Assembly (NCBI GenBank): GCA_016874755.1
Contig: VGTH01000056.1
Span: 1 to 33,042 of the forward strand
DNA: 33,042 nt
Direction: 5' to 3'
Origin: Deltaproteobacteria bacterium
GTDB taxonomy: Bacteria > Desulfobacterota > Binatia > UBA9968
Shown here: positions 3,176 through 33,042 of the stretch, piece after piece
Numbering within the stretch: position 1 is the stretch's first letter
How the letters are laid out: each line of letters begins with the position of its first letter
Translations under genes and position numbers: made by a program
Notes under the pieces: generated by a model
Told to the model about the DNA's origin: nothing
The model's database searches: none
What the model saw: the letters and a program-made list of their open reading frames with translations, nothing else

Positions 3176-4702
3176 TCAGCGTGCGCGCGGCTTCAAATCC
3201 CATGCGTACACATCCTCGCCAGGGTTGGCTTTGAAGTCGAAGCGATTACTGACGCCCTGTAACCCTTGATACTGATAGAGCCACGCCACCGGCGCTTCAT
3301 CGAGCAACACCGACATGGCGCTCTGTAGGAGCTTCAAGCGCTTCGCCGAATCGAGGGTGGTCTGCTCGGCATCCAACGCCGTATCCACTGCGGGGATCGA
3401 ATGCTCCAGCCGTTTGGTCACGCCGGTGCGAAAATATTGGTGCAAGTACTCGCTCGGGTCGACCACCGAGCCGCGGCCGAAAATATACATGCCGACCTTG
3501 CCGTTCTGAATCGCCGCAAAGCCGCTGTCCTGATCCTGGGTGCGAATCTTGGCGCGAATGCCAACCGCGCCGAGCATGCCGCCGATGGCCTCGGCGACGT
3601 CTTTTACTTTGTTGTACTGGCCCAGCGGCACTAGAAATTCGACTTCGAAGCCGCTCGGATATCCCGCTTGCGCCAGCAACGTTTTCGCCCGTGCCGGATC
3701 GTAGTTGTATTTCGGCTTGAGCTCGCGGCTATAGCCGTATTGGTCCGGCCCCACCGGTGCGTCCATGGGATAGGCGAATCCACCGAGCACGTTCTTGGTC
3801 AGCGCGTTGCGATCAATAGCGTAGTTGACCGCCTGGCGCACCTGTTTGTTCTTAAACTCCGGCACCGAGCTATGCATGCCGAGGAACATGATGTTAATCG
3901 TGCGCGCGCTTTCGATGCGCGCGCTGCCGCTCACCCGCGCGGCGCTCTCGGGCGGCACGTTGGAGATGACATCTACTTCACGATTGAGCAAGGACGTAAT
4001 CGCCACTTCGGATTCCGGAATGTTACGAAAGATCACCTCGTCCACCGTCGGCCGGCGATCGCTGCGGCTGTAGCCCTGAACTTTTTCCACGACAAACCAC
4101 TGGCCGCGCACCCAGTCTTTCAGCTTATACGGCCCGGTGCCGAGCGCGAGCTTATCCGCCGCGGCGGCGCCCAAACGATCGTAGGCCGCTTTGTTGGTGA
4201 TGAAGCGCTGCGCCAAGCGAAACGCCAGCGCAGCATCCGGTTTCTTGGTCTGCAGGCGCACGGTCAGCGGGTCGATAGCTTCGATGGACGAGACATGCGC
4301 GATGCTGCTTCTCTGCTTGCTATCCGGGTCGTTGAGAATGCGCGTGTAGGAATGGACCACGTCGGCGGAACTAAACTCGCTGCCGTCGTGAAACTTGATA
4401 CCCTTCTTGAGCTTGAACACCCAGGTGGTCGGGTCAGGGTTGCTCCACGACTCGGCGAGGATCGGCACTAACTTTCTCTGACTCCAGTTCCACTCAACCA
4501 ACGGCTCGATCACATGTTTCCAAGTTGGATAGACCTGCGTGGTCGAGTGGGCATAGGGATTGAGCGTTTCCACTTGCACGCCCGGCAGCGCAATCGTCGC
4601 GGTCACCTTCTGTCCCTTTTGCGCCAACGCGCGATCCGCGGTGCCGCCGCCCAGCGCCAGCACAACAAACAACGTGATTAAGCGAATTTTCCAAATGGCC
4701 AT
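3176..4702 (-). CDS. Peptide/nickel-type ABC solute-binding protein (SBP_bac_5)
   Basis: About 508 residues. It is an extracellular family 5 SBP, of the kind that delivers peptides, nickel or sugars to an ABC importer. The signal peptide is clear: MAIWKIRL, a hydrophobic run (ITLFVVLALGGG), then a probable cleavage after ALAQ. Family landmarks include the segment around NPYAHSTTQVYPTWKHVIEP, then WVFKLKKGIKFHDGSEFSSADVV written here as WVFKLKKGIKFHDG and SSADVVHS, and TGPYKLKDW. I chose the ATG at 4702 because GGAGG precedes it and the signal peptide follows at once; an ATG 54 bases further upstream would add an unlike leader. It diverges from the next SBP across a 161-base gap. No cognate permease or ATPase lies beside it. 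Confidence 0.9.
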   Translation of the reverse strand: MAIWKIRLITLFVVLALGGGTADRALAQKGQKVTATIALPGVQVETLNPYAHSTTQVYPTWKHVIEPLVEWNWSQRKLVPILAESWSNPDPTTWVFKLKKGIKFHDGSEFSSADVVHSYTRILNDPDSKQRSSIAHVSSIEAIDPLTVRLQTKKPDAALAFRLAQRFITNKAAYDRLGAAAADKLALGTGPYKLKDWVRGQWFVVEKVQGYSRSDRRPTVDEVIFRNIPESEVAITSLLNREVDVISNVPPESAARVSGSARIESARTINIMFLGMHSSVPEFKNKQVRQAVNYAIDRNALTKNVLGGFAYPMDAPVGPDQYGYSRELKPKYNYDPARAKTLLAQAGYPSGFEVEFLVPLGQYNKVKDVAEAIGGMLGAVGIRAKIRTQDQDSGFAAIQNGKVGMYIFGRGSVVDPSEYLHQYFRTGVTKRLEHSIPAVDTALDAEQTTLDSAKRLKLLQSAMSVLLDEAPVAWLYQYQGLQGVSNRFDFKANPGEDVYAWDLKPRAR

Positions 4703-4863
4703 GACTTCCTCCGACCTAGGTTCGCTGATACCGCTGCTGCCCCATTTGTTGCACAACTGCTTGTCGAAAAAAAGATGTAAATTCGGACGAGTTGCAATCT
4801 CGCCGGTTTCGATTTAGAGCAGCATGATCGATGTGCGCGTGGCGTAGAGTGGAGAAGAGCAGA
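4703..4863. promoter_or_regulatory. Divergent intergenic region between two SBP genes
   Basis: A 161-base gap separates two head-to-head SBP genes, so it must hold promoters for both strands. It has AT-richer patches around 4770-4790. I could not define -10/-35 boxes with confidence. Confidence 0.45.
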
Positions 4864-5988
4864 ATGCCGATTAAACGTTCCATAAAGAGACTTAGATTTG
4901 TTGTCGCAATGCTTTGCGCCCTGAGCCTGCCGATTCCAATCTATGGTCAACAGAGCAAAGCGCCAGCGGAGTGGGAGAAGCTGGTCGAGGCGGCGCGCAA
5001 AGAAGGCAAGGTCACCGTCTCGCTGCCGGCCAGCGCCGAACTGAAGCGGCAAATCGAGGAACAATTTAAGAAGCGCTTTGCCATCGAAGTGGAGGTGTTT
5101 ACGGCCCGCGGCAGCGCCGGCGTGCGGCGCATGGCGGAGGAGTTCAAAGCCGGCGTGCGCCATTTCGACGTGCACATCGGCGGCTCGAACTCGATCATCT
5201 CAGGCATGTTGGATGAAGGCATCATCGACGCCATCGAGCCGTGGCTGATGCTGCCGGAGGTGCGAGAGCCAAAGCAATGGTGGGGCGGTCACATGTGGGT
5301 CGATAGCGCCAAGCGCTTTATTTATACTTTTCAAGCCTATCTGCCGGAAAGCATCTGGTACAATACGGAAATGGCCAAGCCGAGCGAGCTGCGCTCCATG
5401 GACGACTTTCTCAACCCGAAATGGAAAGGCAAAATCGGCTTTCTTGACCCGCGCACGCCGGGTGGCGGCGATGCGCACTGGTCGTACATGTGGCAAGTAA
5501 AGGGCGAAGAGTATCTCAAACAGCTCGTGGCCCAAGACTTGTTGCTGGGCCGCGATCAGCGCGTGCTCTCGGAAAACCTGGCGCGCGGTCGGATCGCTAT
5601 TTTGGTTGGCAACACCTACTATTCGTTTCAACCGTTCGTGAAAGCCGGCCTGCCTGTGAAGCCGCTACCGACACCGAAAGAAGGAGTCTTCGGCACCGGC
5701 GGCAGCGGCAATTTGGCGATCATCAAAACGCCGGCCCATCCGAACGCGACCAAAGTGTTCGTCAACTGGCTCTTGAGCCGCGAGGGACAAGAAGTCTTCT
5801 CACGCGGCCTGGCGCAGGCGACGCGCCGGCTCGACGTCGACACCACATGGCTGCGCGAAACCGGCACAATCGCGGCCAAGGACGTGATGACACCAGAGGA
5901 ATACTGGCGCGTAGAAAATCAGGCCGAAGATAAACTCGACAAGCTGCGCAAACCGGCGGTGAAAGCGGCCCAGACGCTGTTAAAATAA
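4864..5988 (+). CDS. ABC solute-binding protein, iron/thiamine/polyamine type (group A)
   Basis: A 374-residue family 1 SBP (SBP_bac_6/8-like). Residues 1 to about 30 are a signal peptide (RFVVAMLCALSLPIPIYG). The mature part begins APAEWEKLVEAARKEGKV, which is shared almost residue for residue with the two SBPs at 18436 and 19602; LPEV-x-EPKQWWGGH and FLNPKWKGKIGF are further shared blocks. The ATG at 4864 is preferred over one at 4831 because GGAGAAG lies just upstream and the signal peptide follows directly. The ligand cannot be read from the sequence; relatives bind ferric iron, thiamine, putrescine or organic acids. No permease gene accompanies it. A REP-like palindrome follows the stop. 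Confidence 0.88.
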   Translation: MPIKRSIKRLRFVVAMLCALSLPIPIYGQQSKAPAEWEKLVEAARKEGKVTVSLPASAELKRQIEEQFKKRFAIEVEVFTARGSAGVRRMAEEFKAGVRHFDVHIGGSNSIISGMLDEGIIDAIEPWLMLPEVREPKQWWGGHMWVDSAKRFIYTFQAYLPESIWYNTEMAKPSELRSMDDFLNPKWKGKIGFLDPRTPGGGDAHWSYMWQVKGEEYLKQLVAQDLLLGRDQRVLSENLARGRIAILVGNTYYSFQPFVKAGLPVKPLPTPKEGVFGTGGSGNLAIIKTPAHPNATKVFVNWLLSREGQEVFSRGLAQATRRLDVDTTWLRETGTIAAKDVMTPEEYWRVENQAEDKLDKLRKPAVKAAQTLLK

Positions 5989-6078: not shown

Positions 6079-7491
6079 ATGGCTAAGAACGCGACGAACC
6101 GCGATGCCAACTTCGAGATTTTAGAAGGATATTTCAAGCAGTACCCCGACGTGCCCAAGGAGACCATCGTCAAGCAGCACATGCTTAGCCTGGGCCATTG
6201 GTTCAGCGATGCGGCGCTCGACGCCTGCGCGGGCGCCCTGGTGAAATCCTATCGTTTGTTCTCCTACGATCTAGTGCCGATGTCCTATTTCAAGCGCAAC
6301 GAGCACCGGCGAGTGCCTGAGCACTTCGTGCTGATCAACGGTCCGTACAACATGCGCCCGGTGGCGATCCAGACTTCGCTGTCGCCCGATTCGCCCTATC
6401 TCATCGACATCGTCGATGGCCGCATGGTCATGACCGTGGACGGCCGTGAGGTCTGTGAGATTCGCGTGCCCAAGACGCCGGACTACTATAGCAAGAGCCT
6501 GCCCGACGGCACGCCCTACCATGAGATCGTCGCCTTCGCGTCGTTCATCACGATTTTTCGCAACTGCCAATACTGGGGCGCCAAGGAAGAGTGCAAATTT
6601 TGCGATATCAATGAAAATGCGCGCCAGATGAAGCTATCGCGCGACTTTACGCTCAACGCGCCGGTAAAATCGGTCGAGGACGTCGTCACGGTTTGCGCCT
6701 ACGTCGCCAATGACGCCAAAAAAATTGGCGCCGGCCAGGGCTTTGTCCTGAGCGGCGGCACGATCACGAAAACCTTGCACAGCAAAAGCGAAGCCGATTT
6801 CTACGTGCCCTATATCGAAGCGATCAAGAACATCGGCAGCACCCCGCGCATCACCTTCGAGGTCAACGCCCGGCCGCGCGAAGAAGTGAAGCGCTACAAA
6901 GACGCCGGCGCCGATCACATCCACTTCAACATGGAAGTGTGGGACAAGCAACTGTTTCCGTGGATCAACCCCGGCAAGGCCGAGCGCGTCGGCTGGGACA
7001 ACTGGGTGCGCTGGATGGAAGATGCCGTGGAGGTGTTCGGCAACGGCATGGTGCAGCCGAGCTTCGTCTCGGGCATCGAAATGGCAAAGCCGCACGGCTT
7101 CAAGACCGTCGCGGAAGCGGTTGCCTCTGCGACGGACTGTTTTCAGTATCTGATGCCGCGCGGCATCATGCCGCGGCCGCAGCAGTGGCGCCGCGAGCCG
7201 GCGACGGCGCTCTGCAAAGAAGCCGAACAGCCGCCGGTGCCGTTGGACTACTACATTCAGATGACCCGTAGCTGGTATGAGACGTACGACAAAAATCGCG
7301 ACAAGCTGCCCAAGTTCGGCACCCGCAAAGCCGGCCTACTGGCCGAGCGCAATTTGCTCGGCCCGGTGCACGGCTCCTACGGCGACTATGCCATGCTGAA
7401 AGAAAACCTGTTCCCGGTGGACGTAGAAGAGCAGATCAACCGGCGCAGCGTGCCGTGGAAAGATATCGAGGTAGGCGCCCATGTTTCATGA
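6079..7491 (+). CDS. Radical SAM protein with CX8CX2C cluster motif
   Basis: A 470-residue protein with the layout of a radical SAM enzyme. The predicted [4Fe-4S] ligands are Cys163, Cys172 and Cys175 in NCQYWGAKEECKFCD, giving CX8CX2C instead of the canonical CX3CX2C. A glycine motif (LSGGTITKT, near residues 230-240) fits the SAM-binding 'GGE'-type strand, and ITFEVNARPREEVKRYKDAG is typical of later barrel strands. Residues 1-160 form an N-terminal domain I do not recognise. The start has AAAGGA upstream. The stop overlaps the start of the methyltransferase by 11 bases, so the two are translationally coupled. The reaction is unknown; a modified cofactor or small-molecule product is a reasonable inference from the pairing. 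I am confident of radical SAM chemistry but not of the subfamily. Confidence 0.82.
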   Translation: MAKNATNRDANFEILEGYFKQYPDVPKETIVKQHMLSLGHWFSDAALDACAGALVKSYRLFSYDLVPMSYFKRNEHRRVPEHFVLINGPYNMRPVAIQTSLSPDSPYLIDIVDGRMVMTVDGREVCEIRVPKTPDYYSKSLPDGTPYHEIVAFASFITIFRNCQYWGAKEECKFCDINENARQMKLSRDFTLNAPVKSVEDVVTVCAYVANDAKKIGAGQGFVLSGGTITKTLHSKSEADFYVPYIEAIKNIGSTPRITFEVNARPREEVKRYKDAGADHIHFNMEVWDKQLFPWINPGKAERVGWDNWVRWMEDAVEVFGNGMVQPSFVSGIEMAKPHGFKTVAEAVASATDCFQYLMPRGIMPRPQQWRREPATALCKEAEQPPVPLDYYIQMTRSWYETYDKNRDKLPKFGTRKAGLLAERNLLGPVHGSYGDYAMLKENLFPVDVEEQINRRSVPWKDIEVGAHVS

Positions 7492-8050
7492 TATTTCAGA
7501 GAAAATGCAGCAAGTAATGCGCGCCATGGAGGAACAGCTCGAGCGCGATCAACGTTCGCTGCGCAGCGTCGACACCGACGTGGCGCGCGTGCTAACACTA
7601 CTCGCGATTTCGGCGCCGGCCGGAGCCTTTTTGGAATTGGGCAGCAGCGGCGGCTACTCGAGCATTTGGCTGGCGATCGCCGCCAAGATCAAAGGCGTGA
7701 AGCTTACCACGGTGGACCTCGACGAAAATAAAGTTGCACTAGCGCGCGAGAACGTCGCCAAAGCCGGCGCCGAAAATCAAGTGCAAGTTTTTCATGGCAA
7801 CGCCTTCGACTACGCCGGCCAATCGGAACCGCTGGCGTTTTGCTTCTCCGACATCGAACCGCCGGAGAACAACGCAAAAATCTACGAACTGATCGTACCC
7901 CGCCTGGTGCCCGGCGGCTGGCTGGTGGTCGACAACGTCACCTCGCCGCGCCATCAAGCCGATTTCATCAAGCGCGCCTACAGCGACCCGCGCGTCGACG
8001 CCGTGCTCTTGCCCTTCCCCAAGGGCGATATGATTTGTCGGAAAATCTGA
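7481..8050 (+). CDS. SAM-dependent O-methyltransferase-like protein
   Basis: A 189-residue class I methyltransferase resembling the COMT-like O-methyltransferase family (family 3 / Methyltransf_24). Motif I is FLELGSSGGYSSIWLA (about residues 47-62). An acidic strand end follows at LTTVDLDENKVALAREN, which should bind the SAM ribose, and GGWLVVDNVTSPRHQADF is a later conserved strand/metal-site region in relatives. The ATG overlaps the end of the radical SAM gene and is served by a GAGGT inside that gene, which argues for coupled translation in fixed proportion. It is shorter than typical COMT-like enzymes (about 220). The substrate is unknown, and acting on the radical SAM product or its precursor is inferred only from gene order. 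Confidence 0.85.
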   Translation: MFHDISEKMQQVMRAMEEQLERDQRSLRSVDTDVARVLTLLAISAPAGAFLELGSSGGYSSIWLAIAAKIKGVKLTTVDLDENKVALARENVAKAGAENQVQVFHGNAFDYAGQSEPLAFCFSDIEPPENNAKIYELIVPRLVPGGWLVVDNVTSPRHQADFIKRAYSDPRVDAVLLPFPKGDMICRKI

Positions 8051-11205: not shown

Positions 11206-12198
11206 CTATTTGTAAATCCGGCCAATAAATCCTTCCTTCTCCAACTCCAAAACCAAACTATCGTCGACAATGTCGTCGACCTTCATCGTGCTGCCCGGTT
11301 TGCGCGACACGGCGTCTTTGACTTGGGTGTCCATGCCCTCGCGATTGACCAGCGGCACTTGCTCGAACAGCTTGGCGCTCGACTGATAGGCCGCATCCAG
11401 GAAAGCCTCGTTGTTGTGGCGCGTGTATTTCGCCATGATTTTTTTGCTTTCTTCTTTGCGCGTCTTGTAAAAGTGCGTGCTCTCGATCAGCGCCATCAAG
11501 AGCCGCTTCATCGTGTCGCGGCTATTCTTGACGAAAGCTTTCGACGCCGTCGGGCAAACGTAAGGGAACGGAAATCCTTTGGGGAAATCCGCCGTGCTGG
11601 CAAGAATGCGGTGCGGCATGCCATGGGTCAGATGAATCACGCCTGGCGGCGCCGGGAACGCGATGATGCGCCCGGTGCGAAACGCCGCGGCGCGCTCGGT
11701 GGATCCACCGACCTGGAGAATCGCCACGTCCTTATCGGCTTCCAGCTTAAGCTCCTTGAGAAAGATGCGCGCCGCGACATCGGATGAGCTACCGACGCGG
11801 CTAATGCCGATGCTCTTGCCCTTGAGTTGGGCGGCCGACTTGATCGACTCATGCACGACCAAGTCATAGGGCAGCGTGTTAATGAAGCAGCCGACGGCGA
11901 CCACGCTCGCCCCGCCCACGGCCGCGTTGGCAATCGCGCCGCCGGAAATATTTCCCACCGCCACCGAACCCGCCACCACCGCGGAAATCGTCGTCGTCGA
12001 AGAGGGAATATAGATCAACTCGACGTCGAGGCCGTACTTTTTGTAGGTGCCGCGCTCCTTGGCGATATACCAATTGGCGTTGGGCGCATCGACGGAACTG
12101 AACGCCAGCGTTTGCTGCTGCGCCAAAGCGTCAGACACGGCCACAAAAAACATGAGCGACAAGCCCGCCCACAGGGTCATCTTGCATCGCTGTTGCAT
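11206..12198 (-). CDS. NMT1/THI5-like ABC solute-binding protein
   Basis: A 330-residue SBP of the NMT1/SsuA/TauA type. It begins with a signal peptide (MTLWAGLSLMFFVAVSDALAQ), then TLAFSSVDAPNANWYIAKER and GTYKKYGLDVELIYIPS, which is the standard N-terminus of this family. It ends VLELEKEGFIGRIYK, a C-terminus echoed by the remnant at 21616. The ATG at 12198 has GGAGGT six bases upstream, so the first start is preferred. Relatives bind pyrimidine precursors, sulfonates, nitrate or aromatic acids; the ligand cannot be told here. It is downstream of the permease gene on the same strand, but a terminator-like hairpin separates them. Confidence 0.88.
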   Translation of the reverse strand: MQQRCKMTLWAGLSLMFFVAVSDALAQQQTLAFSSVDAPNANWYIAKERGTYKKYGLDVELIYIPSSTTTISAVVAGSVAVGNISGGAIANAAVGGASVVAVGCFINTLPYDLVVHESIKSAAQLKGKSIGISRVGSSSDVAARIFLKELKLEADKDVAILQVGGSTERAAAFRTGRIIAFPAPPGVIHLTHGMPHRILASTADFPKGFPFPYVCPTASKAFVKNSRDTMKRLLMALIESTHFYKTRKEESKKIMAKYTRHNNEAFLDAAYQSSAKLFEQVPLVNREGMDTQVKDAVSRKPGSTMKVDDIVDDSLVLELEKEGFIGRIYK

Positions 12199-12337: not shown

Positions 12338-14107
12338 CTAGTTCTGCTGAATCCCGTAGCGGCGTGCAAACATATAGTAGAGAATCGCCACGGTAACGAG
12401 AATCACTGTCCAGATAACGCCGAAGGCGGCCAGCTCGCCGACCTGGGCGTTTTCCCAGAGCTCGAAGATGGCGACGGACACGACCGGGGTTTGCGGGCTG
12501 ACGAGCAGCACGGACATGGAGAGTTCCTTGGCCGAAAGCAGGAAGATGAAAATCCACCCGCCTAAGAACGACGGAGTGATCAGCGGCAAAATGATTCGGC
12601 GCATGGAGCTGAACCAAGACGCGCCGGAAACGTAGGAGGCTTCTTCCAATTCTTTGTGCAACTGCAGTAAGCCGGAATGGTTGTAACGAATACCATAGGG
12701 AATGTAGCGCGTCGCAAAGGCGATCAGGAGAATCCACAGCGTGCCATATACGGGAATCGGCACGAAAAGATAGAAACGCAAAATCGCCAGGCCCATGACG
12801 ATACCGGGAAACATCAGCGGCAATGTCGTCAGAAAGTCGAGCAGCCAGCGGCCGCGAATCTTGGTGCGCACGAGAATCCACGACGCCAACAGCGTTAACG
12901 CCATAACGAAGGTGGCGCTACCCAGACCGAGCAGCACGCTATTCTTCACCGAATCGAGGAGCTTGGGGAAATGCAGCGCCGTGACGTAGTTCTTGATCGT
13001 GAACTTCGAGATCGCCTCGATCGACGGCTGCATGTAAAACGGCAACAGCGACGCCCAAAGAATGATTAGAAATGGCAGCAAGAGCAGAATCAGCGAGTAG
13101 GCCAGCAAGCCGGCGCCGGTGACATAGCGCCAGCGGCCCAGGCTGATCAGCGCCGGGCGATAGCCCTTGCCGGTAACAGTGTGGTAGCGGTCGCCTTCGC
13201 GGGTGATGCGAAAATAAAAATAGAGAGTAATACCGACCACCACCATGAGCAGCACGGCAAAAGCCCCGGCGCTGCCGTATTGCGGCGGCAGCTTCTGCGC
13301 GTCGAGGTAAATCGATGTCGTCAGCACGCGGATATCGCCCGGCAGTCCGACCAGCGCGGGAATTTCAAAAGACTCGAAGGTGCGAATAAAAATCAGCAGC
13401 ATGACCGAGAAAAGCGCCGGCAGCATGAGCCGCAGCGAAACCTTGCGCATGGTTTGCCACACCCGCGCGCCGCAGGCGGCCGAGGCTTCTTCGAGCGACG
13501 GGTCCATCGAGCGAAACGCGGCGGCCAGCATGAGAAAAACGAAGGGCGACCATAACAGCGACTCAATCAGCACCATGCCGAACATGGAGTAAACGTTGAG
13601 GACCGGTGTGGTTTGATTGAAAATGATTTTCAGCCAATAGTTCACCGGCCCAGCTTTGCCGAGCAGCAACAGCCAACCGATGGTGTAGAGAATGAACGGC
13701 GTGCCAAAGGACGCAAACGCGGTGAAGTAGCCCAGGCCGCGCAGCGGACTATCGGTGCGCACGACGATCCAGGCGATGGAACCGCCCAAGGTCGTGGCGC
13801 AGACAGCACTCAACACCGAGAAGTAAAACGAATTCAAAAACGGCCCGATGATCTGCAATCCGCTCAGCAAATCGCGGTAATATTTGAAGGTGAACTGATC
13901 GATCTCGCCAGTCAGCTTGCTGGTAAACAGGCTGGTTTGAATGACGGAGTAGAGCGGCGGCAAAACCAAGTAAGCCGTCACCAGCGAGACGCTGATCATG
14001 ACGCAGGTGGCGACATCGAAGCGGGAGGCGAGGTTGGCCGACAGCGACGCGCTGTCGCTGTTGGTTTTCAGCGGCAGATCAATAGTTTCTGTAGGTTGCT
14101 TGGCCAT
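12338..14107 (-). CDS. ABC transporter permease, two fused domains (FbpB-like)
   Basis: A 589-residue integral membrane protein with about 12 helices, made of two BPD_transp_1 permease halves in one chain, as in FbpB-type ferric iron and related importers. Both EAA loops, which dock on the ATPase, are visible: LEEASAACGARVWQTMRKV in the first half and LEEASYVSGASWFSSMRRI in the second, each with the spaced glycine. It lies 11 bases after the SBP at 14119 and so forms an SBP-permease transcript. No ATP-binding subunit gene is present in the window, so the transporter must borrow one or the gene lies elsewhere. Confidence 0.93.
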   Translation of the reverse strand: MAKQPTETIDLPLKTNSDSASLSANLASRFDVATCVMISVSLVTAYLVLPPLYSVIQTSLFTSKLTGEIDQFTFKYYRDLLSGLQIIGPFLNSFYFSVLSAVCATTLGGSIAWIVVRTDSPLRGLGYFTAFASFGTPFILYTIGWLLLLGKAGPVNYWLKIIFNQTTPVLNVYSMFGMVLIESLLWSPFVFLMLAAAFRSMDPSLEEASAACGARVWQTMRKVSLRLMLPALFSVMLLIFIRTFESFEIPALVGLPGDIRVLTTSIYLDAQKLPPQYGSAGAFAVLLMVVVGITLYFYFRITREGDRYHTVTGKGYRPALISLGRWRYVTGAGLLAYSLILLLLPFLIILWASLLPFYMQPSIEAISKFTIKNYVTALHFPKLLDSVKNSVLLGLGSATFVMALTLLASWILVRTKIRGRWLLDFLTTLPLMFPGIVMGLAILRFYLFVPIPVYGTLWILLIAFATRYIPYGIRYNHSGLLQLHKELEEASYVSGASWFSSMRRIILPLITPSFLGGWIFIFLLSAKELSMSVLLVSPQTPVVSVAIFELWENAQVGELAAFGVIWTVILVTVAILYYMFARRYGIQQN

Positions 14108-14118
14108 GATTCAGATTG

Positions 14119-15189
14119 CTACTTCACAAAGATGCTGTTGAAAATATCCACCCATTCGTTGCCCTTGTCGAATTGGTTATCGGGGTTGACGTAGTAGGCC
14201 TTGTTGAAACGGCCGCCGCCCGGCTTCAGGTCTACTTGTTTGGCCGGCAACTTCGGATGGGCCGGCAAATAGTTCGACTGCTGGTAGACGCGCTGGCCCT
14301 TCTCCGAAAGAATAAAATCGATCAGCAGCATGGTCGCGTGCGGATGGGGCGCGAATCGGCCGATGCCGACGTTGTTGATGCTCGCGGTCGCCGGCTCGTG
14401 CACCTGCCACTCCACCGGCGCACCGAGATTCTTGCTAATGAATGCGTGATGATTGAACATCTGCAGCGCCAACGGATATTCGCCGGCAATCGTCAGATCG
14501 AGCACCTGGCGATTGCTTGCGGTCGTCTTGGCGATGTTTTGCTGTCGCAACTTTTGCAGATAGGCGCGGCCGGCTTCATTGCCCATGGTGTTGAGGATCG
14601 TGCCAACGAACATTGGCGCGCCCGAGCCGCGGCTGGTCGACCACATCATTTGGCCTTTCCATTTCGGATTGAGCAGATCTTCGTAGGTCTTCGGCACTTC
14701 GGCCGCTTTGACCATGCGCGTGTTGTAGCCGGTGGCAAAAAAGTACAAATTGGTTGCCGCCCAAAAACCATTGGCATCCTTCAGCTCGGCTGGGTACTCG
14801 GCAAGATAGGGCGAGTGGAAGCGCTGCAAATAATTCGCCCGCCGCACCATGGTCGGCGACACCGTGCCGTCAATCATGTCGACCTCGTAGCGCTTGGCGC
14901 TGTACTCGGAGATCATGCGCTGGACGATGTTCTCGGTGTTGGCGCGGAAGAACTCCATCGTTATGAATGGGTATTCTTTTTCGAACGCGACTTTGAGCGG
15001 CCGCACCACCTGATCGACGATCAGCGTTGTATACCAGGAGACCTTGCCTTCTTTTTTGGCGCCTTCGACCAGAATCTTCTGACGGTCGGCAGATTTGAGA
15101 TTGGCAATGTCCTCGACCGATGCCGCCATGGCGAGGCCCAGCCAACCAAAGATAAAGGCGCAGCATAACAACCCATTCAGACGAACCAT
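14119..15189 (-). CDS. ABC solute-binding protein paired with the permease (group B)
   Basis: About 356 residues; an iron-type family 1 SBP. The start at 15189 (MVRLNGLLCCAF) follows a strong GGAGGGGG and opens a signal peptide ending near MAAS; the ATG 30 bases upstream lacks this spacing. Landmarks are ADRQKILVEGAKKEGKVSWY, GYNTRMVK, MMWSTSRGSGAPM and KPGGGRF, all shared with the SBP at 17300, so the two are close paralogs. It is followed after 11 bases by the fused permease gene and is the best-supported partner for that permease. The ligand is unknown; metal or small anion transport is inferred from the permease type. Confidence 0.9.
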   Translation of the reverse strand: MVRLNGLLCCAFIFGWLGLAMAASVEDIANLKSADRQKILVEGAKKEGKVSWYTTLIVDQVVRPLKVAFEKEYPFITMEFFRANTENIVQRMISEYSAKRYEVDMIDGTVSPTMVRRANYLQRFHSPYLAEYPAELKDANGFWAATNLYFFATGYNTRMVKAAEVPKTYEDLLNPKWKGQMMWSTSRGSGAPMFVGTILNTMGNEAGRAYLQKLRQQNIAKTTASNRQVLDLTIAGEYPLALQMFNHHAFISKNLGAPVEWQVHEPATASINNVGIGRFAPHPHATMLLIDFILSEKGQRVYQQSNYLPAHPKLPAKQVDLKPGGGRFNKAYYVNPDNQFDKGNEWVDIFNSIFVK

Positions 15190-15276
15190 CTGCGAGCCCC
15201 CTCCGTTCGTTCCATGCAATCGCTGCCCGAAGCTAGTCCTTCTGCCCTTAAGTTGTCAAGGTAAATGAGCAGCGCA

Positions 15277-17299: not shown

Positions 17300-18376
17300 C
17301 TATTTCAAGAAGTTTTTATCGAAATACTCTACCCAGGCGTCGCCTTCGTTCAATTGCGAATCGGGCGTGAAATACAGGGCGCGCTTGAAGCGGCCTCCGC
17401 CCGGTTTGAGATCGATTTGCTTGGCGGGGATCCTTGGATGCGACGGCAAGTAATTCACCCCCTGAATGACTTTCTGGCCTTCCTCCGACAAGATGAAATC
17501 GAGCAGCAGCAGCGCTGCGTGCGGATGGGGCGAGCGTGTCACCGGCGAGATCGTGTTGATGGTCGCCGACGCCGGTTCGATGGGCGACCAATCCACCGGC
17601 GCGCCCGCCGATTTGCTGATATGGGCGTGGTGATGAAAGATGTGCAGCGCGAGCGGATATTCGCCGGCGATGACCAAATCCAACAACTGCCGGTTGCTCG
17701 CCGTGGTCTTGGCAGGGTTCTGTCCCTTTAACTTTTGCAGATACGCTTTGCCCGCTTCGTCTCCCATGGTCTTGAGGATATTGCCGATCATCATCGGCGC
17801 GCCCGAGCCCCGGCTAGTCGACCACATCATCTGCCCCTTCCAGCGCGGGTGCAGCAAATCTTCGTAGCTCTTCGGCACTTCGTTGGGCTTGACCATACGG
17901 GTGTTGTAACCGACCGCGAAGAAATAAACGTTGCTCACGCCCCAGTAGCCCTGCGGATCTTTCAGCTCGGCCGGATAGTCGGCAAAGTGAGGTGTATAGA
18001 AACGCTGCAAGAAACCAGCCTTTTTCACCATCGGCGCGGTTACCGTGCCGTCGACGATATCGACCTCGTAGCGCTTGCCCTGATATTCGGAAAACATCTT
18101 TTGCACGATGCGCTCCGAGTTGCCGCGGAAATGATCGATGGCAATGAACGGATATTTTTTCTCGAAGGCCTCTTTGATCGGCCGCACGACTTGATCGACG
18201 ATCAGCGACGTATACCAGGTGATCTTCTTTTCTTTCATGGCGCCTTCGACCAGCAGCTTCTGCCGGTCCGGCTTGTTGTAGAGCATGACATCGTCGACGG
18301 TGGCGGCCTGCGACTGAGAAAGCGCGCAACAAAACAGCGCCATCACACTCGACAAGAAAATATTTCGCAGCTTCAT
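17300..18376 (-). CDS. ABC solute-binding protein (group B paralog)
   Basis: A 358-residue family 1 SBP. The signal peptide is MKLRNIFLSSVMALFCCALS ending near SQA, and GGAGAG precedes the ATG. It shares long blocks with the SBP at 14119 (DRQKLLVEGAMKEKKITWY, GYNTRMVK, MMWSTSRGSGAPM, KPGGGRFKRA), so it is a paralog of similar length. It has no permease of its own and may feed the fused permease at 12338. It lies 59 bases downstream of the SBP at 18436 on the same strand and could be the last gene of a three-SBP transcript. Confidence 0.9.
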   Translation of the reverse strand: MKLRNIFLSSVMALFCCALSQSQAATVDDVMLYNKPDRQKLLVEGAMKEKKITWYTSLIVDQVVRPIKEAFEKKYPFIAIDHFRGNSERIVQKMFSEYQGKRYEVDIVDGTVTAPMVKKAGFLQRFYTPHFADYPAELKDPQGYWGVSNVYFFAVGYNTRMVKPNEVPKSYEDLLHPRWKGQMMWSTSRGSGAPMMIGNILKTMGDEAGKAYLQKLKGQNPAKTTASNRQLLDLVIAGEYPLALHIFHHHAHISKSAGAPVDWSPIEPASATINTISPVTRSPHPHAALLLLDFILSEEGQKVIQGVNYLPSHPRIPAKQIDLKPGGGRFKRALYFTPDSQLNEGDAWVEYFDKNFLK

Positions 18377-18435: not shown

Positions 18436-19563
18436 TTATTTCAAAATCGTCTCGGCAAACTTCCCCGCTGGCGCGCGCACCTTCGTGTACTTGTCTTCCA
18501 GGTGATTGCGCACACGGTGATATTGCTCCACTGTCAGTGAGTCTTTGGCGGCATTGATGCCGAGCTTGGCGAGCCAGCGCGTCTCGACGTCCAACCGGCG
18601 CGTGCCGTTTTCCATCACCTTGTTGTACCACTCCTGCCCTTCTTTACTGAGAAACCAATTAACGAAAACTCTAGCAGCGTTGGGGTTGGGCGGATTTTTC
18701 ACCACGCCGATGACGCCAAAGCCATTGCTGGTAGGCAGCCCTTCTCTAGGCGCCGGCACCGGCTTGAGCGGCAGGCCGGCATCCACATAGGGGTCCACCG
18801 GAGAGCGACCTAAGCCAAACGCCACAGCGATCTTGGCTTTCGCCAGGGCGTCGGCAAGTTGGCGCAAATCGCGCGTCAAGAACAAATCCTGCGCCGCTAG
18901 CTTCTTGAGAAACTCTTCGCCTTTGATGTCCCACATGAACGACCAGATGCCTTGGCCGGAGCTGGGCACGCGCGGATCGCTGAAGCCAATCTTGCCCTTC
19001 CACTTCGGCTGGAGAAAATCGTCGAAGCTTTTGAAGTCTTCGGCTTTGGCCAGGGTCGCGTTGAACCAGGCGTTTTGCGTCGCCACGTCGGCGAGAAACG
19101 AGTAGAGAAACTTGCTGGTGCCGAGATTGTCTTCCCAAACATGGCCGCCAAACCATTGCTTGGGATCTCTGACTTCAGGGAGAATCCAGAACGACTCGAT
19201 CGGCTCCAGCATGCCATCGTGCGCCAGGCTCACCGCGGTGCCGGTGCCGCAGATGATCGCATCGAAGTAGCTCACCCCCGCTTTCTTTTCCGCCGCGATG
19301 CGCGCAGCGTTCTTCGGCCCCGATGCCGGCACCAGCTCGGCTTCGATGCCAAACTTCTGGCGCAGGACACTCTCCATCTCTTTGCGCAGCTCATTGGACG
19401 GCGGTATCGCCAGCACAACCTTGCCCTCTTTTTTCGCCGCCTCGACGACCTTGTCCCACTCGGGGGGCCGACGGGCTTCGGCGGCGAGCGCGCTCTGTAC
19501 GCTAGCCAGCGCCACGGAAACAACCAATATTTTTATTGCCAAACTATTTTTCATGATCGCCAT
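18436..19563 (-). CDS. ABC solute-binding protein (group A, tandem copy 2)
   Basis: A 375-residue family 1 SBP with a signal peptide (LAIKILVVSVALASVQSALA). The mature start PPEWDKVVEAAKKEGKVVLA and the blocks RIAAEKKAGV, YFDAIICGTGTA and LPEVRDPKQWFGGHVWEDN are nearly the same as in the neighbour at 19602, and weaker but clear in the SBP at 4864. The ATG at 19563 has AGGAAC about nine bases upstream; a second ATG three codons in lacks this. It is 38 bases downstream of the neighbour, in the same direction. It reads as a recent tandem duplicate that has diverged in ligand-facing parts. No transport core accompanies it. Confidence 0.9.
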   Translation of the reverse strand: MAIMKNSLAIKILVVSVALASVQSALAAEARRPPEWDKVVEAAKKEGKVVLAIPPSNELRKEMESVLRQKFGIEAELVPASGPKNAARIAAEKKAGVSYFDAIICGTGTAVSLAHDGMLEPIESFWILPEVRDPKQWFGGHVWEDNLGTSKFLYSFLADVATQNAWFNATLAKAEDFKSFDDFLQPKWKGKIGFSDPRVPSSGQGIWSFMWDIKGEEFLKKLAAQDLFLTRDLRQLADALAKAKIAVAFGLGRSPVDPYVDAGLPLKPVPAPREGLPTSNGFGVIGVVKNPPNPNAARVFVNWFLSKEGQEWYNKVMENGTRRLDVETRWLAKLGINAAKDSLTVEQYHRVRNHLEDKYTKVRAPAGKFAETILK

Positions 19564-19601: not shown

Positions 19602-20720
19602 TTATTTCAAAATCGTCTCGGCAAACTTGGCCGCCGGCAGGCGCACGGCGGTGTACTTGTCTTCCAGATGATTGCGCAGCTTATGATATTGCTGCACGGT
19701 CAAGGTATCTTTCGCCGCCGAGATGCCGGTGTCTTTCAACCATTTGGTGTTCACGTCCAAGCGCCGTGTGCCGTTTTGCATGACTTTCGCGTACCAATCT
19801 TGACCTTCACGGCTCAAGAACCAGTTGACAAAAACTCTGGTCGCGTTCGGGTGCGGCGGGTCCTTGATGACACCGAGCACGCCAAAGCCGTTGCTCGCTG
19901 GCAAACCTTCTTTGGTCACCGGCGCCGGCTTCAGCGGCAAACCGGCCTTGACGAACGGCTCCGTCTGACTGCGGCCCAAACCGAAGGCAATCACGACCTT
20001 GCCCTTCGCCAGCGCGTCCGCCAGTTGACGCAGGTCGCGCGTCAAGAACAACTCCTGCGCGACGAGTTTCTTGAGAAACTCTTCGCCGCGATGCTCCCAC
20101 ATAAACGACCAGATCGATTGCCCCGAGCTCGGCACGCGCGGATCGCTGAAGCCAACCCGCCCTTTCCATTTGGGATTCAAATAATCATCAAAGCTGCGCA
20201 GCTCCTGCGGCTTGGCGAGGCTGGTATTGTACCAGGTGCTGTGCGTGCTGACGTCGGCGAGAAAAGAGATGAGAAACTTATGGGTGTTGACGTTGTCTTC
20301 CCAAATATGACCGCCCCACCACTGTTTAGGATCTTTGACCTCGGGCAGAATCCAAAACGATTCCAGCGGCTCCAACATGCCGTCGTGGGTCAGCCCAGCC
20401 GCGGTGCCGGTGCCGCAGATGATTGCATCGAAATAATTAACGCCGGCTTTTTTCTCGGCGGCGATGCGGCTTGCGTTCTTCGGACCGGGCGCAGAAACCA
20501 GCTCAGCTTCCAATCCAAACTTCTGCTTCAGCAGCGGCTCCAACGCCGTGCGCATCTCGGTGGCCGGCGGAATCGCGAGTACGATCTTGCCTTCTTTCTT
20601 GGCCTCTTCTAGCGCCTTGTCCCACTGCGGCGGAGCCTTCGCTTCGGCGGCGAAGAGAACGGTGCTCCAACACGCCACCAGAAATATCGCTAGCAAGATG
20701 ATCCGGTTTCTTATCTGCAC
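19602..20720 (-). CDS. ABC solute-binding protein (group A, tandem copy 1)
   Basis: About 372 residues from a GTG at 20720 (VQIRNRIILLAIFLVACWST), which opens a signal peptide ending near LFAAEA. The open frame extends 31 codons further, but that part is a translated dispersed repeat (it reads SPFFKGG, from a C-run/G-run palindrome) and should not be annotated as protein. The mature part (PPQWDKALEEAKKEGKIVLA, RIAAEKKAGV, YFDAIICGTGTA) is nearly the same as in the next gene. No strong ribosome binding site is visible, and the repeat may have replaced the original leader region. It lies downstream of gfa on the same strand. Confidence 0.88.
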   Translation of the reverse strand: MQIRNRIILLAIFLVACWSTVLFAAEAKAPPQWDKALEEAKKEGKIVLAIPPATEMRTALEPLLKQKFGLEAELVSAPGPKNASRIAAEKKAGVNYFDAIICGTGTAAGLTHDGMLEPLESFWILPEVKDPKQWWGGHIWEDNVNTHKFLISFLADVSTHSTWYNTSLAKPQELRSFDDYLNPKWKGRVGFSDPRVPSSGQSIWSFMWEHRGEEFLKKLVAQELFLTRDLRQLADALAKGKVVIAFGLGRSQTEPFVKAGLPLKPAPVTKEGLPASNGFGVLGVIKDPPHPNATRVFVNWFLSREGQDWYAKVMQNGTRRLDVNTKWLKDTGISAAKDTLTVQQYHKLRNHLEDKYTAVRLPAAKFAETILK

Positions 20721-20735
20721 GATCTCATCCGAACT

Positions 20736-20820
20736 TCCCCCTTTGAAAAAGGGGGATCGAGGGGGATTTCTTCCAAGCGCAACGGAAAAAATCCCCCTAC
20801 CCCCCTTTTTCAAAGGGGGG
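20736..20820. repeat. Long imperfect inverted repeat with C5/G5 runs
   Basis: Arms of about 32 bases (20737-20769 and 20788-20819) pair almost completely. Each arm itself contains a C-run, a TTTGAAAAA-type centre and a G-run, so small and large hairpins are possible. It lies between gfa and the first tandem SBP and may terminate or attenuate read-through. It also has the look of a dispersed repeat common in environmental genomes; that is memory, not a search. Confidence 0.75.
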
Positions 20821-32067: not shown

Positions 32068-32928
32068 CTAACCGATCGCCGTGCCGGCCGGGATGGTATT
32101 GCCTTTGTCGATGATGGCGCGGCGGATCTTGCAATTGCGGCCGATCTCGGTCCAGTCCATGATCACCGAATCTTCGACCTCGCTGTAGCTGTGAATGCGC
32201 ACGTTGCGGCCGATCACACAATGGCGCACGGTGCTGCCGCTGATGATCGTGCCTTCGGCGACGATCGAGTCCAGCGCGGCGCCGCGCCGCTGTTCGTCGG
32301 CAAAGACGAACTTGGCCGGCGGATCGCCGTAGCCCACTGTGCGCAAGGGCCAATTGCGATTGTAGAGATTGAACTCCGGATCGACCGAGCAGAGATCCAT
32401 GTTGGCTTCATAATAGGACTCGAGGGGTCCGAGATCGCGCCAATAGCTATGCTCCTCGCCCTTGAAGCGAAACGGCAGATTGTTTTTGCGAAAGTCATAG
32501 GCAAACGCGCGTTTTTCCCGGACCAACGCCGGAATCAGATCGCGCCCGAAGTCGTGGCGGCTCTGCGCGTCATTGGCATCGCTGCTCAAAGCTTGGACCA
32601 GCACATTGCTGCTAAAAAGATAGTTGCCCATCGACACCAGCGCATATTCCGGCTCACCGGGTATCGGCTTCGGGCAGCGCGGCTTTTCTTCAAAGCCAAC
32701 GATGCGCCAATCGGCGTCGACTTCCATGACGCCGAACTGGGAGGCTTCTTCGATGCGCACCAGCAGCGCTGCCACCGTGACGTCGGCAAAATTGTGCTTG
32801 TGCGCGCTGATCATCTGGCGAATATCCATGCGATAGATATGATCGGCGCCGAATACCGCGACAAAGGTCGGGTTGTGGCGCTGGATCAAGTAAAGATTTT
32901 GGTAGACCGAATCGGGAGCTATGATCAA
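32068..32928 (-). CDS. glgC: Glucose-1-phosphate adenylyltransferase, 5'-truncated and stopped early
   Basis: About 282 residues of ADP-glucose pyrophosphorylase, the committed step of bacterial glycogen synthesis. The visible part starts at DSVYQNLYLIQRHNPTFVAV, then FGADHIYRMD, a nucleotide-sugar transferase core. Later come VGFEEKPRCPKP and a left-handed beta-helix with hexapeptide-like repeats (GTIISGSTVRHCVIGRNVRI). Missing are the first 90 or so residues with the GGxGxRL-type pyrophosphorylase motif, because the contig's terminal repeat begins at 32916; the apparent TTG start at 32928 lies inside that repeat and is not real. An in-frame TAG cuts off the last 31 residues. GH57 follows on the same strand. 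Confidence 0.9.
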   Translation of the reverse strand: MIIAPDSVYQNLYLIQRHNPTFVAVFGADHIYRMDIRQMISAHKHNFADVTVAALLVRIEEASQFGVMEVDADWRIVGFEEKPRCPKPIPGEPEYALVSMGNYLFSSNVLVQALSSDANDAQSRHDFGRDLIPALVREKRAFAYDFRKNNLPFRFKGEEHSYWRDLGPLESYYEANMDLCSVDPEFNLYNRNWPLRTVGYGDPPAKFVFADEQRRGAALDSIVAEGTIISGSTVRHCVIGRNVRIHSYSEVEDSVIMDWTEIGRNCKIRRAIIDKGNTIPAGTAIG

Positions 32929-33042
32929 AGCGTGTGGAAATAGGAAATAGGTAGGCGTACCCTTTCGCGAATCTAAAAACGAAAGGCTGCCTGTTGGCGC
33001 AGGCAGGAAAGGATACGCCGATGAGAGAAAAGCACACTGAGG
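32916..33042. repeat. Right copy of exact 127-bp terminal inverted repeat
   Basis: The exact reverse complement of 1-127. It replaces the 5' part of glgC: the GlgC-like reading ends at about codon 'DSVYQN' and everything beyond lies in the repeat, which in the same frame gives no GlgC-like residues. Either an element is inserted in glgC or two genomic places were joined at a shared 127-mer. Confidence 0.9.

Follow-up and report, generated by a model that had tools for sequence, protein, structure and literature searches.

A variant radical SAM protein with a CX8CX2C motif and its overlapping methyltransferase gene: a lineage-restricted pair within a family of no assigned function

What might a radical S-adenosylmethionine (SAM) protein with an unusual cysteine spacing be doing in tight genetic linkage with a methyltransferase? 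This question is raised by a 33,042-nt stretch of DNA from Deltaproteobacteria bacterium (contig VGTH01000056.1 of assembly GCA_016874755.1, forward strand; the whole stretch is referred to below as the window), in which the open reading frame of an O-methyltransferase-like protein starts 11 bp before the end of the stop codon of a gene for a 470-aa variant radical SAM (rSAM) protein. An earlier note, made from the sequence alone, had suggested a tightly coupled two-enzyme pathway, possibly for a new cofactor, a signaling compound or the degradation of an unusual substrate. The present analysis confirmed its observation and supports its interpretation in part. In the window pair we see a lineage-restricted version of an rSAM family that is known but has not been characterized. 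Our preferred reading, to which we assign a probability of roughly 0.35, is that an uncharacterized NF045502 rSAM, with a [4Fe-4S] cluster held by the CX8CX2C cysteines, acts on one small molecule jointly with the methyltransferase of the overlapping gene, using a chemistry similar to that of MqnE (aminofutalosine synthase).

The three cysteines of the protein (C163, C172 and C175) lie within CQYWGAKEECKFC and conform to the CX8CX2C pattern. The cluster motif of rSAM enzymes is usually CX3CX2C, and some accepted rSAM families have a different spacing. The Pfam Radical_SAM profile matches the window protein with 27.5 bits, just below its cut-off of 29.5. The protein scores over the cut-off of NF045502 (“variant_rSAM”; Table 1), a curated, domain-level NCBIfam family for which no function is assigned. 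This is a broad rSAM family, detected over the cut-off in 53 of the 297 genomes sampled from the window's phylum. The CX8CX2C spacing is present in 60 of the 61 homolog rows that we collected from the class, the phylum, Chloroflexi, Gemmatimonadetes, a Thaumarchaeota metagenome-assembled genome, Xanthobacteraceae, Streptomyces plasmids and an Agrobacterium plasmid. These 60 include eight NF045502 members over the cut-off from the phylum search (L019-L026), and only the Nit1C rSAM from the Agrobacterium plasmid deviates (CX9CX2C). Moreover, C163, C172, C175, W166, G167 and the stretch E170-N178 are invariant in an alignment of the window protein with 18 others (19/19), which range from 33% to 87% identity to it. 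The invariance of the cysteines, combined with the spacing shared by 60 of 61 rows, argues against a chance arrangement; the shared spacing is a trait of the family already modeled by NCBI, as an observation on its members rather than a stated criterion of the NCBIfam model. The unusual spacing is not new to the window locus, since NCBIfam models the group, albeit without an assigned function. Neither a loss of the cysteines among homologs nor membership in a characterized rSAM subgroup, the two outcomes that the earlier note had regarded as fatal to its proposal, was encountered. The GG-type SAM motif that it had described stands with respect to its second residue, G227, which is invariant in all 19 sequences, but not with respect to position 226, which is Ser in four of them (three from Chloroflexi and one from Xanthobacteraceae).

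An AlphaFold2 model of the window rSAM (computed with the window protein and 18 relatives as input; mean pLDDT 88, pTM 0.88) was assigned by Foldseek and structural alignment against the PDB to the rSAM-type partial TIM barrels. The best of these matches are lipoyl synthase (5exj; Z 15.2, root-mean-square deviation (rmsd) 3.6, 234 aligned), HydE (7o1t; Z 14.6, rmsd 3.9, 243 aligned), MqnE (6xig; Z 14.6, rmsd 4.3, 238 aligned) and biotin synthase (8vcw; Z 14.0, rmsd 3.2, 210 aligned). Together with the NF045502 score, this predicted fold supports the assignment as a variant radical SAM enzyme. In the model, the three cysteines are carried by a loop that connects strand 156-158 to helix 177-187, the usual position of rSAM cluster loops. 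The block pLDDT falls to 62-75 at this loop, as would be usual for a cluster loop modeled without its cluster. An hhalign alignment (probability 68%) placed C172 and C175 on the last two cysteines of the MqnC motif. Searches with the rSAM sequence and profile against PDB sequences returned chance-level matches only, and among viral structures the model had no close counterpart, the rows returned being distant or generically rSAM-like.

Orthologs of the window rSAM (72-100% identity) are present in 11 of the 148 genomes of the window's class, and orthologs of the methyltransferase (65-100%) in the same 11 genomes, adjacent to the rSAM gene every time. The 11-bp overlap, already pointed out for the window, recurs in ten of the 11 orthologous loci and measures 8 bp in the remaining one. 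The rSAM clade accompanied by the methyltransferase is monophyletic (100/100) in a tree holding ten of the 11 genomes, the rSAM of the eleventh having been missed by the gene caller. Eight more class genomes carry a second rSAM group only (18 places in all, at 46-53% identity) and three carry both groups; the window's genome has three rSAM copies. In a check of ten genomes, the methyltransferase was found in all five carriers of the rSAM subgroup; four of the five non-carriers had no match at 1e-10 and one, G416 of the window's family, had two methyltransferase matches of 34%. Two further class genomes have a 38% relative of the methyltransferase with no rSAM nearby. Within the class, methyltransferase orthologs are confined to the window's family. 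They were not found in the two genomes searched outside the class (Chloroflexi G433 and G434), and the methyltransferase cluster is absent from the listed mapped loci of relatives in other phyla. The tight coupling suggested earlier is thus well founded, whereas the expected conservation of the pair across phyla is not observed. Since the methyltransferase occurs in the same 11 of 148 genomes as the rSAM subgroup, always next to it, the pairing is genuine and specific, and these data make it look like an invention of the lineage.

The methyltransferase exceeds the PF01596 cut-off of 22 bits (Table 1), and its nearest PDB sequences are family 3 O-methyltransferases. D124, D151 and N152 are invariant in nine of nine methyltransferases and are aligned with Asp, Asp and Asn of PDB entries 7cvu and 8c9v; we take these to be the positions of the divalent-metal ligands of COMT.

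Table 1. Features of the rSAM-methyltransferase locus (positions refer to the window)
Feature	Coordinates	Strand	Evidence
Solute-binding protein (SBP) gene, SBP_bac_1/8/11 type; extracellular, 385 aa; putative substrate supplier	4831..5988	+	PF01547 47.7 bits
Variant rSAM gene, 470 aa, ATG start	6079..7491	+	NF045502 172.9 bits vs cut-off 125; rSAM fold in AlphaFold2 model
CX8CX2C cluster motif, C163/C172/C175	6565..6603	+	Sequence reading and family alignment
GG (G226-G227) SAM-binding-like motif	6754..6759	+	Alignment of 19
COMT-like class I O-methyltransferase gene, 189 aa	7481..8050	+	PF01596 44.5 bits, PF13578 51 bits

Genes in the fetched loci were called with our own GC-frame script (minimum 60 aa), by which some were missed or misread; the rSAMs of L062 and L118 and the PF02621 gene of L116 were placed by tblastn or genome search instead. 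Neighbor counts refer to stretches limited by contig ends, and neighbor family names to one tested representative per cluster, with the remaining members assigned by cluster or by eye.

The idea of a new cofactor gained an unexpected lead from Chloroflexi, where a cousin subgroup takes up the position of MqnE in the futalosine route to menaquinone. A related variant rSAM (36-38% identity to the window rSAM in the alignment, 40-42% in search matches) is encoded in seven of the 47 genomes of one Chloroflexi class (loci L115-L119, L162 and L172). A PF02621 (MqnA-type) gene adjoins it in all seven, and the order PF02621-rSAM-MqnC-like gene is found in six of the six loci where the contig continues. 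The same seven genomes have two PF02621 genes; in the remaining 40, PF02621 is found once in one genome and not at all in 39 (1e-10). As PF02621 cannot tell MqnA from MqnD, we assign the copy beside the rSAM to MqnA and the one farther away to MqnD. Two of the six MqnC-like genes were scored against the MqnC model, and both are over its cut-off of 428.1 (442.5 and 437.2). MqnE (TIGR03700) is over the cut-off in none of the 47 genomes, and the mqn-linked rSAM relative has no TIGR03700 match at 1e-4. TIGR03700 also has 18 weaker matches, spread over 17 genomes: six MqnC-like neighbors, two CofH and ten in 816-851-aa frames (in nine genomes), which by length alone resemble the fused CofGH model (849). 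One rSAM carrier, also with no MqnE over the cut-off, is nearly closed (a 5.07 Mb contig for a genome given as 5.1 Mb), and MqnE is therefore unlikely to have been missed there through incomplete assembly. Further along one of the mqn-linked loci is an aminofutalosine-deaminase-like gene (176 bits, below the cut-off of 320). The chance probability of the seven-of-seven versus zero-of-40 split is 1.6e-8 if the genomes are treated as independent, which they are not.

The variant rSAM appears to stand where MqnE is expected, because it lies between the PF02621 and mqnC genes in a class with no MqnE over the cut-off. Its replacement of MqnE in Chloroflexi is a prediction with good genome context support. 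A comparative study of 2016 proposed other alternative futalosine enzymes, and the term “radical SAM” is absent from its main text (PMC4746308). Our literature searches on MqnE and futalosine, on rSAM with MmgE, UbiD or SBP, on Binatota and on Chloroflexi SBP paralogs returned no paper that we recognized as describing these clusters. The cousin operon provides the uncharacterized NF045502 family with a testable function.

How much of this can be carried over to the window enzyme? The window and mqn-linked rSAMs belong to one 45-row group of a midpoint-rooted tree (support 100/99). A comparison of three groups (10, 14 and 5 rows, with one exception allowed in the second) revealed 86 positions that are fixed and shared, including the cluster motif, N284, E286, W288, P298-K300, E334, W370 and E373. 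In the MqnE reaction, an enolpyruvyl double bond receives the 5'-deoxyadenosyl radical. Given that a related subgroup from the window enzyme's own clade stands in for MqnE between mqnA and mqnC, we infer an MqnE-like chemistry for the window enzyme as well. According to this scheme, the CX8CX2C cysteines would hold a [4Fe-4S] cluster, and the rSAM would cleave SAM to the 5'-deoxyadenosyl radical, which would add to, or abstract hydrogen from, an unsaturated or aryl/enol carboxylate in the MqnE manner. The carboxylate would be delivered by the SBP, and the methyltransferase would then methylate a hydroxyl (or carboxyl) of the product, with D124, D151 and N152 as ligands of a divalent metal. A shared radical chemistry acting on different small carboxylates is the most economical reading of the window and mqn-linked enzymes. 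A bolder extension, less likely than not, would regard the CX8CX2C family as a second radical-adenosylating lineage apart from MqnE. One of its subgroups would then be the missing Chloroflexi aminofutalosine synthase, and the window's subgroup would perform the same radical addition on another unsaturated carboxylate, the adenosylated or rearranged product being capped by the methyltransferase. No description of an rSAM and methyltransferase capping pathway was found in our literature searches.

A number of observations weigh against an MqnE-like role of the pair. The identity between the window and mqn-linked enzymes is just 36-38%, and 68 positions (five of them gaps) are fixed but different, so that the two may differ in substrate and even in type of reaction. 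A single clade, and thus few independent events, may underlie the 47-genome association, and MqnB/MqnX were not searched for across these genomes. Neither MqnC nor MqnE is matched in the window's genome, where TIGR03700 hits CofH alone (460.7 bits over 374.1) and where MqnA and MqnD were not searched for. For this reason we rejected the possibility that the window enzyme is the MqnE of its own genome, and a part of the pair in menaquinone synthesis by the futalosine route is improbable. The Chloroflexi genome G434 has an MqnE over the cut-off (481.9 bits, with an internal stop, at a contig end) along with 18 rSAM copies; these copies, and the three in the window's genome, suggest that many family members do something else. 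The structural model does not single out MqnE, as LipA, HydE, MqnE and BioB are tied. On the methyltransferase side, Pro127 is found in nine of nine proteins at the position of the catalytic lysine of COMT (three residues after the first Asp). SBPs of this type are so common (98 matches in the window's genome, the SBP upstream of the rSAM included) that adjacency weakly supports substrate supply. Finally, the neighbors of rSAM paralogs (MmgE/PrpD, UbiD, ornithine-cyclodeaminase-like (OCD) proteins, amidohydrolase, AFOR and LUD) are suggestive of catabolism over cofactor synthesis.

These neighbors lead to an alternative that we consider quite possible, if short of even odds, namely that the window enzyme and its paralogs are catabolic, employing the 5'-deoxyadenosyl radical as an oxidant for hydrogen abstraction so that imported organic acids are dehydrated, isomerized or decarboxylated. 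Paralogs with dedicated SBPs would serve different substrates, and the methyltransferase would be an accessory detoxification or product-capping step. In G434, 17 of the 18 rSAM copies are within 2.5 kb of an SBP of the window's type (∼29% expected) and 14 of 18 within 500 bp (∼11% expected), the expectations being computed from 358 first-look SBP candidates in 6.5 Mb, 150 of which were scored. The families represented around these copies are UbiD, MmgE/PrpD, AFOR, molybdopterin oxidoreductase, cupin, FAD oxidoreductase, LUD and MtmB-like (one representative of each tested, two for cupins). A similar picture emerges for the second-group paralogs of the window's class, which have MmgE/PrpD (9/18), an NMT1-type SBP (11/18), amidohydrolase (8/18) and OCD (6/18) genes within 2.5 kb. 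On the other hand, the methyltransferase accompanies one rSAM subgroup only, no substrate is indicated, and these genomes are very dense in SBP genes. Since SBPs may cluster with any catabolic gene, the proximity is an association and not a proof of a shared substrate, and we rejected the SBP-rSAM link as proof of substrate supply, the SBP family being hugely expanded.

The recurrence of the SBP, anticipated by the earlier note, holds to some extent, as the same SBP type recurs beside the Chloroflexi relatives and a co-directional ortholog precedes the rSAM in six of the 11 orthologous loci. Two loci have a divergent SBP relative (53-58%), but three have no SBP of more than 45% identity in the available upstream sequence (just 218 bp, 1.5 kb and 4.1 kb). 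The nearest PDB sequences of the window SBP are pyridoxal-phosphate-binding and Fe(III)-binding proteins (E 2e-9 or weaker), and a phosphonate role was rejected (best NCBIfam match 24.1 bits versus a cut-off of 310).

An improbable alternative to the joint action of the two enzymes in MqnE-like chemistry is that they make a secreted small molecule (a signal, metallophore or redox carrier) that is re-imported via the SBP. The two-gene unit with its nearly constant overlap would be in keeping with it, as would an ATPase gene and an ABC-2 permease-like gene (assigned by eye) upstream of the SBP in L055 and L056. However, such a presumed exporter is seen in just two of 11 loci, and no gene of the size of a nonribosomal peptide synthetase or polyketide synthase was found within five genes on either side in the mapped loci, contig ends permitting. 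A small precursor peptide could escape these maps, as genes under 60 aa were not called. A Nit1C-like role, that is, a nitrile- or cyanide-related step like that of MSMEG_0568, is very improbable. Nit1C rSAMs are distant relatives in the tree and TIGR04043 does match the window rSAM, but with 67.3 bits, far below its cut-off of 303.7, on which basis membership was rejected; moreover, the Nit1C rSAM examined has CX9CX2C and an adjoining nitrilase, and no nitrilase family is present among the scanned window proteins. That the protein is a degenerate or structural relative rather than a working rSAM, as the slightly low Pfam score and the displacement of the first cysteine relative to CX3CX2C might hint, is hardly credible, given the residues invariant in 19 homologs of several phyla, an intact predicted fold and the retention of several copies in some genomes.

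The remainder of the window is rich in SBP genes, with seven of several types in 33 kb (3176-4756, 4831-5988, 11206-12198, 14119-15219, 17300-18376, 18436-19563 and 19602-20813) and one permease-family gene (12338-14107) among the scanned proteins. The window ends (1-132 and 32911-33042) form a 132-bp inverted repeat, 98% complementary, which is probably a repeated element that broke the assembly.

Overall, NF045502 is heterogeneous, with mqn-linked, sulfate-assimilation-linked, SBP-linked and Nit1C-like subgroups. In five loci (L137, L140, L147, L148 and L149; representatives tested) a more distant NF045502 rSAM lies within a sulfate-assimilation cluster, whose partners vary by locus and include ThiS-/ThiF-like proteins, JAMM peptidase, CysM, PAPS reductase, ATP sulfurylase and a DASS transporter; a role of these rSAMs in sulfur-carrier-dependent cysteine synthesis is possible. 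Another set (L128, L141, L143-L146 and L152) consists of Nit1C-like units in which rSAMs are found beside varying combinations of an SsuA-type ABC importer, FMN reductase and AIR-synthase-like genes (L143 alone tested), and in which no nitrilase was noticed. The L143 rSAM is of the TIGR04043 type (387 bits), is fused to a GNAT domain and has CX8CX2C. Homologs of MtmB-like methylamine methyltransferases (PF05369, tested in L097) are encoded near variant rSAM genes in the G434 loci L093 and L097. The two Streptomyces plasmid relatives (35-37%) have no informative neighbors. Distant PLSDB matches (E up to 1e-5) include 369 Klebsiella and 30 Escherichia plasmid records, and such rows among those listed are annotated as MSMEG_0568 family (Nit1C-type) rSAM.

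With respect to known systems, literature searches by family name and motif returned no paper on NF045502 and no radical SAM paper on CX8CX2C; the CX8CX2C string in PMC4918011 refers to reductive dehalogenases, and C-X8-C in PMC11138216 to a thioredoxin-like ferredoxin motif. The glutamine C-methylase MgmA (PDB 9ccb), described as B12-dependent and having a Rossmann domain (PMC11796369), is the fifth-ranked Foldseek match of the model (E 1.2e-6); a relationship was rejected, the likeness being in fold only and MgmA not being among the sequence matches. The methyltransferase resembles the COMT-like family 3 (PF01596; PDB 8c9v, 7cvu) in its profile and in the D/D/N metal-ligand positions, but has Pro127 in place of Lys in 7cvu and Arg in 8c9v, and its catalysis may differ from that of COMT because it lacks the lysine three residues after the first aspartate. 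The MSMEG_0568/Nit1C rSAM (TIGR04043), described in 2005 as closest to COG2516 genes and as part of a cluster then without experimental evidence of function (PMC1199592), is a distant homolog with a variant cysteine spacing as well; it differs in its nitrilase cluster and in the CX9CX2C of the one plasmid member read, the window rSAM being below the TIGR04043 cut-off. MqnE shares the rSAM barrel (6xig, Z 14.6, tied with others), and a subgroup related to the window rSAM is found in its place beside mqnA and mqnC. On the other hand, it constitutes a separate sequence family (the window rSAM has no TIGR03700 match at E up to 1) and contains the usual CX3CX2C instead of CX8CX2C. The closest likeness is to the NF045502 variant_rSAM family itself, with which the window rSAM agrees both in its score over the cut-off and in the CX8CX2C of the members read, and nothing excludes its membership.

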